DNA from: Thioclava nitratireducens
GTDB taxonomy: Bacteria > Pseudomonadota > Alphaproteobacteria > Rhodobacterales > Rhodobacteraceae
Reading direction: 5' to 3'
DNA length: 64,000 nucleotides
NCBI RefSeq assembly: GCF_001940525.2
Contig: NZ_CP019437.1
Location: 419,501 to 483,500, forward strand
Under the pieces are notes generated by a model. It was not told the origin of the DNA and ran no database searches. It saw nothing but the letters and a program-made list of their open reading frames with translations. Numbering within the stretch: the first letter of the stretch is position 1; each line of letters begins with the position of its first letter. Shown in pieces: positions 1 to 1,932 of this stretch. The position numbers were made by a program, and so were the translations under genes.

Positions 1-274
1 AGAAGCTCTCGGGGTCGTATCGGTCGCAGAGCGCCTTGAGCCGCGCGAGGTGGTCGCGATCCAGCGGATCGGGCCCGCCGATCGAGAGGCCCACGCCATG
101 CACCGAAAGCGCGTAGTCCGCGCGCAGCCGCTCCAGCATCGCATGCGGCATCCCGCCCGCGCCCATATAGTTTTCCGCGTGGATTTCGAAGAACCCGAGG
201 TCCGGTTTCGTCTCTGATATGGCGGGAAAGTGCTCTGGCTTGAAGCCGAGGCCCGCTTTGCGTGGCAGTGTCAT
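1..274 (-). CDS. bufB: MNIO/DUF692 family peptide-modifying enzyme BufB (N-terminal part only)
   Basis: I translated the window edge on the minus strand; the gene starts at ATG 274 and runs off the left end, leaving 91 residues. The visible part carries the DUF692 signature: GLGFKPEHF near the start, then [14 protein letters not shown], then [11 protein letters not shown] and [10 protein letters not shown]. Members of this family are multinuclear non-heme iron enzymes that convert cysteines of a partner peptide; the His of HAENY and of SVHG belong to the metal-site region of the family. It lies 57 bp downstream of a DUF2282 precursor gene on the same strand, the standard bufA-bufB order. Family assignment is firm; the role in modifying the neighbouring peptide is inferred from characterised bufferin systems. 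Confidence 0.9.
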
Positions 275-293
275 GGCAGCCTCCATGGATGAG

Positions 294-324
294 AAAACGG
301 GGCGCACGCCGACCGCACGCCCCG
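294..324 (-). terminator. Hairpin with T-tract between bufA1 and bufB (attenuator candidate)
   Basis: On the minus strand a 7-bp GC stem (arms 318-324 and 298-304, cggggcg/cgccccg) with a 13-nt loop is followed by TTTTC at 297-293. It sits in the bufA1-bufB gap, so it would reduce rather than abolish read-through and set more precursor than enzyme. Confidence 0.55.
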
Positions 325-331
325 CTTGGGG

Positions 332-604
332 TCACATCTCTTTCGGTTCGAGCGAGCCCATGCCGTGCGGCGTCTCGATCGAGGTGCAGGTGCCTGCCGG
401 GACGAGTTTCCAGGCGTTGCCCTGATAATCCATAGTCGCGGTGCCGGCGCAGGTGGTGCCGGGGCCGGCGGCGCAATCGTTCTGCCCGGCCATCGCGACG
501 CCGTAGCATTTCTCCATCGCCTGATCTTCGGCATGGGCGGCGCTGGCCAACCCCATCGCGCAGGTCAGAGCAGCGGCAAAGCCAAGGGTAGTTTCGGTCT
601 TCAT
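332..604 (-). CDS. bufA1: Bufferin precursor BufA1 (DUF2282 family)
   Basis: A 90-residue exported peptide of the DUF2282 family. Residues 1-25 form a Sec signal peptide ending in an AHA cleavage site. The core has four cysteines, C33, C44, C52 and C73, in the contexts [22 protein letters not shown] and AGTCTS, which are the hallmarks of class 1 bufferins. In studied members the MNIO enzyme converts core cysteines to 5-thiooxazoles and the product sequesters copper in the periplasm. The start at 604 has a GGGAGA ribosome site a few bases upstream. Followed by bufB; divergent from the sigma factor gene, whose promoter motif it shares. BufC and DoxX genes usual in such operons would lie outside the window. 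Confidence 0.88.
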
Positions 605-650
605 GGTAGTCTCCCTGATTGGTTGGGGCCTCTTGCGGCCCTGATCACCG

Positions 651-676
651 TTCGCGAGAGGTCACGGCGTCGTTAC
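651..676 (-). promoter_or_regulatory. SigF-type ECF promoter of the bufA1-bufB operon
   Basis: Minus-strand GTAACG (676-671), exactly 16 bases, then CGAA (654-651). The same arrangement occurs on the opposite strand in front of the sigma gene. It resembles the GTAACC-N16-CGAA motif that I recall for Caulobacter SigF. A start about 7 bases on would leave a leader of roughly 40 nt containing the bufA1 ribosome site. Confidence 0.7.
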
Positions 677-719
677 GATGCTCACGCCAGCGTGAAGAAA
701 AAAGTTTTTCGCTCCGGCT

Positions 720-745
720 GTAACGAAGGCATGATCGCGAACGAA
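720..745 (+). promoter_or_regulatory. SigF-type ECF promoter of the sigma factor-nrsF operon
   Basis: GTAACG (720-725), exactly 16 bases, then CGAA (742-745), identical in spacing and core to the divergent copy upstream of bufA1. The predicted start near 752 lies almost on the sigma gene start at 755, implying an autoregulated and nearly leaderless transcript. Confidence 0.65.
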
Positions 746-754
746 GGGACGGCG

Positions 755-1306
755 ATGATGCATGATCGGCGGGCAGATTGGTCGCAGCTCCTGCGGGCTG
801 CGAATGCGGGCGACAAGCGCGCCTATGGCTTGTTCCTGCAAGCCGTGACCCCCGTGCTTCGCTCGGTGGTGCGGTCGCGTGGCGGAGGGTTGTCAGAGGC
901 TGATTGCGAGGACGTTGTGCAGGAGGTTTTGCTCGCCATCCATCTGAAGCGTCACACTTGGCGCGAAGATGAGCCTGCTGCGCCGTGGTGTTACGCAATC
1001 GCCCGGCACAAGGTGGTCGACGCCTTTCGCAAACGCGGGCGACGTTTCCATCTTCCGGTCGAGGACTTCGCCGAGGTGCTGCCCGCCGCGCCTGAGGCGG
1101 ATCCTACAGAAAAGGCCGATATAGAGACGTTTTTGACCCATCTGGAGCCCCGCGCAGCGCAACTGGTGCGCGCTATCGGGCTCGAAGGGAAAAGCATCGC
1201 GGAAACTGGCGATGCGTTAGATATGAGTGAGGGAGCGGTGCGGGTCATGCTGCATCGTTCGTTGAAAAAACTGGCCGCGCTTCGCGAGAGGCTGATCGAG
1301 ATATGA
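755..1306 (+). CDS. sigF: ECF RNA polymerase sigma factor, SigF/NrsF type
   Basis: A 183-residue extracytoplasmic-function sigma factor. Region 2 begins about residue 8 and includes DCEDVVQEVLLAIHLKR and the melting-region stretch APWCYAIARHKVVDAFRKRGRR; region 4 is the helix-turn-helix IAETGDALDMSEGAVRVMLHRSLKKL near the C terminus. The open frame extends far upstream, but 755 is chosen because AAGGGA lies 5 bases before it and region 2 starts directly after. The stop overlaps the start of the nrsF gene (ATGA), so the two are translationally coupled. It probably drives bufA1 and itself through the two GTAACG-N16-CGAA elements; release is expected when NrsF senses metal or oxidative stress. 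Confidence 0.9.
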   Translation: MMHDRRADWSQLLRAANAGDKRAYGLFLQAVTPVLRSVVRSRGGGLSEADCEDVVQEVLLAIHLKRHTWREDEPAAPWCYAIARHKVVDAFRKRGRRFHLPVEDFAEVLPAAPEADPTEKADIETFLTHLEPRAAQLVRAIGLEGKSIAETGDALDMSEGAVRVMLHRSLKKLAALRERLIEI

Positions 1307-1932
1307 AGACCGAAGACCTGATATCCGTATTGCAACAGGACACGTTGCACGAACCCCGCCCGAAACAGGTGCTGGGCCGCTGGCTTGTGCCGGCGCTTTT
1401 CCTGTCAGCGCTGTTCGTGATTTCGGTCTATGGTTTGCGGTTTCCGCTGCAACAGACCCTTATGACGCCGGAAATCGCCCCGAAATTTTACCTGCCGCTG
1501 GTCTTGGCCGTGCTCGTGACGCCGATGGCAGTGCGCCTGGGGCAGCCCACGGCGAAGGTGTCGACCGGGTGGCTCTGGATCTTCCCGGCACTCGGCGCCG
1601 CGCTTTTGGCCTATGCTTACCTGACCACGCCCGACGGGCAGCGGATGGCGGATTTCAAGGGAGAGACGATCCTGCCCTGTCTGATCTCCGTTCCGATGCT
1701 GTCCTTCCCGGCGTTGGGCGCGCTTCTCGTGAGCCTGCGCAAAGGGGCGGTGACGCGCCCGGCGCGGGCCGGGGCGCTCGCGGGGCTCGCCGCCGGAGGA
1801 ATGGGTACCGCGATCTACGCCTTGCACTGCACCGAGGACAGCCCGCTTTTCTACGTCACGTGGTATGGCGCGGGGATCGTCGTCGTGATGCTTGTGGGTG
1901 CTTTGCTCGGGAAGCGCGTGTTGCGCTGGTAG
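1303..1932 (+). CDS. nrsF: NrsF/DUF1109 family membrane anti-sigma factor
   Basis: A 209-residue polytopic protein with about six hydrophobic segments (near residues 27-45, 62-80, 88-108, 125-145, 155-175 and 185-205), matching DUF1109/NrsF. Two conserved cysteines are visible, C126 in ILPCLISV and C176 in LHCTEDSPLFY. In Caulobacter the equivalent cysteine pair is needed to keep SigF inactive, so these are the likely sensor residues. It overlaps the sigma gene by 4 bases. Function as anti-sigma is inferred from family and operon. Confidence 0.87.
   Translation: MKTEDLISVLQQDTLHEPRPKQVLGRWLVPALFLSALFVISVYGLRFPLQQTLMTPEIAPKFYLPLVLAVLVTPMAVRLGQPTAKVSTGWLWIFPALGAALLAYAYLTTPDGQRMADFKGETILPCLISVPMLSFPALGALLVSLRKGAVTRPARAGALAGLAAGGMGTAIYALHCTEDSPLFYVTWYGAGIVVVMLVGALLGKRVLRW

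Follow-up and report, generated by a model that had tools for sequence, protein, structure and literature searches.

We consider it likely that the bufferin locus at the left edge of the window, a 64,000-nt stretch of the Thioclava nitratireducens genome (contig NZ_CP019437.1, positions 419,501 to 483,500), combines a complete Buf1 bufferin operon and a divergent sigF-nrsF switch with a second input to bufferin output. This input would be a putative dimeric DNA-binding protein other than SigF, most likely an activator, occupying a dyad upstream of the -35 element of bufA.

The host genome consists of three contigs (4.24 Mb) and contains the complete bufferin gene set, the window starting inside that set. 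The genes bufA, bufB, bufC and doxX run leftwards from a 150-nt spacer, and sigF and nrsF run rightwards from it. The bufA gene (332-604, minus strand) encodes a Buf1 (DUF2282) bufferin precursor of 90 amino acids, which matched PF10048 with 94 bits (cut-off 22.4). The 5' part of bufB, the MNIO enzyme gene, lies at 1-274 on the minus strand with a likely ATG at 274, and it runs on leftwards to L002:7432 (L002 position = window position + 8000); the whole frame (L002:7432-8307) matched MbnB_TglH_ChrH of Pfam with 359.6 bits. Beyond the left end of the window, where the preliminary description had suggested looking for bufC and a DoxX gene, both were present: bufC (DUF2063) at L002:6675-7457 with a Pfam score of 85.0 bits, and doxX (DoxX) at L002:6211-6678 with 59.7 bits. 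On the other side of the spacer, sigF (755-1306, plus strand) encodes an ECF sigma factor of 183 amino acids (Sigma70_r2, 42.9 bits; Sigma70_r4_2, 39.8 bits) and overlaps by 4 nt with nrsF (1303-1932, plus strand), which encodes the anti-sigma factor (NrsF, PF06532, 168.9 bits). All named Pfam matches exceeded their cut-offs. DUF2282 gave one match in the whole genome, and so did the MNIO family (E <= 0.001). The closest named loci to this NrsF were those of Thioclava sediminum and Thioclava sp. JE_KL1 (94%).

Peptides of the bufferin class buffer copper and are widespread. Of the five cysteines in the BufA precursor, one (C15) belongs to the signal peptide and four (C33, C44, C52 and C73) to the mature part; the N-terminus (27 letters) looked by eye like a typical Sec-type signal peptide. 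The best solved relative of BufB was 3bww (153.8 bits), and C126 and C176 of NrsF were invariant in an alignment of 23 sequences. The four parts named in the preliminary description, that is, a DUF2282 precursor with the four-cysteine bufferin pattern, the start of its MNIO enzyme at the left edge, and a divergent ECF sigma factor and NrsF protein with the C126/C176 pair, were all found in their places, with agreement from Pfam. The MNIO survey describes bufferins as peptides with cysteine-derived thiooxazoles that sequester copper in the periplasm (PMC12452194). Following the description of Buf1, BufBC would turn C44 and C52, the central cysteine pair of BufA, into thiooxazoles, and C33 and C73 would form a disulfide; by homology, the peptide would be exported by Sec and would buffer periplasmic copper. 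Both the cysteine modification of BufA and the metal induction of the locus are predictions based on homology.

The spacer contained GTAACG-N16-CGAA twice, back to back. One copy (651-676, minus strand) points towards bufA and has conserved counterparts before bufA in relatives wired to SigF, and the other (720-745, plus strand) points towards sigF-nrsF. The pattern GTAAC-N17-CGAA matched 11 times on both strands of the 4.24-Mb genome and the reversed control pattern 24 times. Since two of the 11 matches stand back to back between exactly these genes, a chance arrangement is very unlikely, and it is strongly supported that SigF would read both divergent promoters. The sigF ATG lies 9 nt past the -10 element (window 720-757), so the sigF mRNA is probably nearly leaderless. 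None of the remaining nine matches was accepted as a regulon target beyond the bufA-sigF locus. Frames close downstream of other matches were rpmB (L010), a CorA-like gene (L013) and an ATPase-like gene (L011); these three matches differ in the sixth letter, reading GTAACC or GTAACT, and possibly arose by chance.

The gene order and domains equal those of Caulobacter CC3252-CC3257, with sigF-nrsF corresponding to CC3253-CC3252 and the bufferin 1 operon to CC3254-CC3257. According to the Caulobacter paper, SigF promoters (GTAACC-N16-CGAA) precede the DUF2282-DUF692-DUF2063-DoxX operon and sigF, the SigF regulon answers to chromate and cadmium, and NrsF is a negative regulator whose two conserved cysteines matter (PMC3511200). 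Copper is also reported to induce the SigF regulon, and a sigF mutant to be copper-sensitive (PMC8224329). The published target differs by one hexamer letter from the GTAACG-N16-CGAA found here. A further difference is that Thioclava nitratireducens has a single bufferin operon and a single MNIO gene, whereas the Caulobacter regulon, as described, adds a second operon, CC2907-CC2905, and CC2748 (PMC3511200). If the mechanism published for Caulobacter applies here, NrsF would hold SigF until metal acts on the NrsF cysteine pair and frees it, and the freed SigF would transcribe bufA and, weakly, its own operon.

The Buf1 clusters of the MNIO survey share with this locus the core gene set, the four cysteines and, as far as its N-terminus can be judged by eye, the Sec signal peptide, and sigma and NrsF genes had already been reported in them (PMC12452194). 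By its description, the GIG operon of Legionella, which is similar to the Cupriavidus one, is also alike, with DUF2282, DUF692 and DUF2063 and a copper/gold response (PMC5413113). Because the architecture and metal response were published for Caulobacter and the sigma and NrsF genes were known in Buf1 clusters, the locus itself is known in kind, and the SigF/bufferin reading of the preliminary description is a sound transfer from published work.

The wiring of the locus to SigF-NrsF that had been proposed was borne out by the domains, the gene order and both SigF-type promoters. However, the accompanying statement that the peptide is made under sigma control was incomplete, as there is a conserved dyad at the bufA promoter, without counterpart at the sigF promoter, and many relatives show similar dyads at bufA without a SigF-type promoter. 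The preliminary description mentioned neither the two SigF-type promoters (651-676, minus strand; 720-745, plus strand) nor the dyad.

In the window the dyad is a perfect palindrome, TCACGCTGGCGTGA, which reads along the minus strand from 695 to 682 (half-sites TCACGC and GCGTGA around a central TG) and stands 5 nt upstream of the bufA -35 element; we propose it as the operator of the second regulator. The bufA-side promoters of relatives showed a second conserved block upstream of -35 with the same general form, TCAC-N6-GTGA. A divergent bufA was present in 37 of 80 named NrsF loci, within the DNA stretches examined. We found 56 divergent bufA-sigF loci, of which 54 had a readable bufA-side motif and 42 were non-redundant (<80% identity across the promoter stretch). 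Allowing no more than one mismatch in its eight letters, we located the dyad 4-6 nt before GTAAC in 35 of these 42 promoters and within 35 nt, at any position, in 39. Shuffled bufA-side promoters, which keep base composition only, gave 0.04 on average and never more than 3, against the 35 of 42 observed. An early composite pattern, built with a spacer of 4 nt, had matches in 4 of 385 genomes but not in the window, where the spacing is 5 nt; it was not used as support.

The wider bufA set, with bufA starts chosen by rule, comprised 136 non-identical loci, 74 of them with a SigF-type motif and 63 of those non-redundant. The dyad was present in 55 of these 63 promoters, a denominator that retains at least L061, L132 and L151, which are probably false SigF matches. 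Among the named loci obtained after the pattern was first noticed, 34 of 39 had the dyad, and the five lacking it were L090, L093, L095, L132 and L151. Four Thioclava-type loci (L090, L092, L093 and L095) kept the SigF-type bufA promoter with the dyad missing. Three of these four showed a clearly A/T-rich stretch in its place.

The conservation of the dyad bears on whether SigF alone controls bufA, as described for Caulobacter, in which case the dyad would be incidental, for instance a flanking sequence favoured at SigF target promoters. The published Caulobacter reporter work, as given in the article text, explains bufA expression by the SigF -35/-10 elements alone (PMC3511200), and at L310 and L311 the dyad stands before SigF-type promoters whose genes are not bufA. 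However, none of the 27 sigF-side promoters had the dyad; among the loci outside the family described below, L315 had a single imperfect copy with one mismatch, located 17 nt from its sigF-side -35. The SigF-alone explanation also leaves aside the tandem dyads at bufA promoters that have no SigF-type motif, and the five loci in which the dyad lies farther upstream by about one helical turn, as would be expected of a bound protein. We regard control by SigF alone as improbable.

The distance between dyad and -35 took few values in the promoters of the wider set. It was 4 nt in 6 promoters, 5 nt in 42, 6 nt in 2, 15 nt in 2 and 16 nt in 3, with no other spacings. The 15-16-nt class (L026, L041, L130, L195 and L305) covers at least four genera, judged by genus codes and titles, and places the dyad about one helical turn farther from -35 than the 4-6-nt class. 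Two spacings one turn apart suggest the behaviour of an activator that is kept on one face of the DNA. A site next to -35 can also serve a repressor, and the dyad might be an operator where, as long as metal is absent, a repressor keeps RNA polymerase from the bufA -35. The fixed spacing, the one-turn alternative and the lack of a recognisable sigma70 -35 in promoters with tandem dyads would fit an activator better, and we take a repressor to be possible though rather unlikely. The dyad is most likely bound by an activator, and conservation, spacing and geometry support a dimeric protein that would assist RNA polymerase at bufA.

Related dyads were found at bufA genes without an NrsF neighbour. 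Among 198 genomes of the Rhodobacteraceae-type family, DUF2282 matched in 140 and NrsF in 30, so many bufferin operons of the family are probably under control other than SigF-NrsF. Genome G581, from the genus of the window genome, had two DUF2282 matches (L300 and L306). Upstream of bufA without an NrsF neighbour we observed two dyads 15 nt apart, TNAC-N6-GTGA-N-NCAC-N6-GTGA. This template was first seen in 29 loci. For scoring, 60 loci (L173-L232) from genomes with a DUF2282 match were chosen for the absence of a divergent NrsF match. A tandem score of at least 12 of 14 letters was reached in 46 of the 60 loci and in 0.07% of shuffled regions. Of the 60, 19 belonged to the loci in which the template had been seen and 41 were new, and the score was reached in 15 and 31 of them, respectively. 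Two of the 60 (L186 and L227) still hold an NrsF-like frame and two (L195 and L227) a SigF-type motif; none of these three loci was among the 46.

The tandem form was close to specific for bufferin, since 28 of the 32 matches to a strict tandem pattern, found in 29 of the 198 family genomes (reversed control, 3), lay 157-218 nt from a DUF2282 match on its upstream side; the other four were elsewhere. About 25 nt after the tandem dyads there was a weaker conserved CTAnnTT, which resembles a sigma70 -10 element, and no sigma70 -35 was recognisable in these promoters. Measured from its centre, the dyad lies 37.5 nt from the end of the -10 element in both promoter classes, with start sites assumed.

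The inverted repeats could in principle act as RNA, folding into a hairpin or terminating a transcript such as that of thrS, as bufA stood directly behind thrS in 45 of the 60 loci without an NrsF neighbour (same strand, with no more than 600 nt between the end of thrS and the bufA frame). However, SigF-wired loci have the same dyad between their divergent promoters, and its GTGA letters were nearly fixed across loci with tandem dyads. Two examples that were folded showed nothing exceptional, being little or no better than their shuffles (z = -1.75 and -0.34). A hairpin is thus an extremely unlikely explanation of the dyads, and a protein-binding site remains our reading of them. The bufferin operons of these relatives probably answer to a putative second regulator.

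Outside the family we took the best-scoring 29 NrsF loci of a profile search, and 15 of them had a divergent bufA with the exact SigF-type motif. The dyad was present at 4-6 nt in eight of these 15 loci (four from family f93 and one each from f66, f145, f176 and f95) and missing in seven (three from f37, three from f66 and one from f63). Five of the eight positives (L314, L317, L322, L323 and L325) are from genomes already met in earlier pattern searches, and L322 was first picked up by a pattern of which the dyad was a part.

Two loci show that the single dyad also occurs at genes other than bufA. At L310:494-739 an exact dyad and a SigF-type promoter precede a small, methionine-rich, secreted-looking protein with no Pfam match, near a cytochrome-b561-like frame. 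At L311:2-775 an exact dyad is located 17 nt upstream of the SigF-type promoter of a DUF1223 protein.

Back-to-back pairs of SigF-type promoters were found in 10 of 385 genomes of the class, and the reversed control had no match among those tabulated. Five of the ten pairs were bufA-sigF spacers (L073, L074, L075, L078 and L079). At L076 and L082 bufA was present and sigF was not beside it, and at L077 the pair adjoined sigF-nrsF and no bufA was found. At L080:826-2853 and L081:827-2868, back-to-back GTAACC promoters without a dyad stood between cytochrome b561 and msrA-msrB, with gene identities at L080 taken from Pfam. We read these two loci as a methionine-repair version of the SigF wiring.

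From these comparisons we lean towards a putative dimeric regulator, binding TCAC-N6-GTGA, that would be common to the bufferin operons of the Rhodobacteraceae-type family and of some other Alphaproteobacteria. It would act from the same distance (centre near -44.5) at sigma70-like promoters with two tandem sites or at SigF promoters with one. The sigma factor would have changed and the operator been kept, which would have made the promoter a gate with two inputs in Thioclava, among other lineages.

We searched for the protein that might bind the dyad. In the gene clusters around the 60 loci without an NrsF neighbour, no transcription factor was common next to bufA, and thrS was the gene found upstream; neighbour genes were picked by a rule based on GC position, under which some genes can be overlooked. 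The single-dyad pattern matched six times in the window genome (reversed control, 0), and five of the six matches lay 29-95 nt upstream of a gene on the same strand. The genes behind the matches included Rrf2, ABC-transporter, MFS and Hint-like genes.

An exact TCAC-N6-GTGA stands 29 nt ahead of the start of the Rrf2-family gene (G000:C1:2587852-2588301, L263), whose closest NCBIfam model was RirA, with 139 bits and below the cut-off of 193. An Rrf2-family regulator encoded elsewhere in the genome could bind the dyad, which would link bufferin to iron or Fe-S status. In line with this, 9 of 21 orthologue loci, among them that of the window genome, had the exact dyad upstream of rrf2, and it was conserved in several genomes of the genus. 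However, the rrf2 and bufA dyads did not track each other within the genus: the dyad was at bufA and absent at rrf2 in G594 and G587 (and in G589, with one mismatch in the bufA dyad), and it was absent at bufA and present at rrf2 in G584, G588 and G592. Outside the genus, all four rrf2 genes at loci of the same family (L279-L282) were without an upstream dyad. As its site does not follow the bufA dyad across the genus, the Rrf2-type candidate was not supported as the dyad binder, and we judge it very unlikely.

The new part of the locus is regulatory, namely the conserved dyad at the bufA promoter as found by sequence comparison. The available text of the Caulobacter paper mentions no upstream dyad and does not contain 'palindrom' (PMC3511200), and the main text of the MNIO survey does not use the word 'promoter' (PMC12452194); the operator proposed here is additional to what the survey describes. 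In the literature covered on bufferin, MNIO, SigF/NrsF, DUF2282 and ECF16, with most subscription papers outside its scope, we recognised no report describing the dyad. As far as these texts go, SigF-NrsF was the sole control of bufferin that we met. A site conserved nearly only at bufA would offer a handle, as bait, on the missing regulator and on copper sensing besides SigF.
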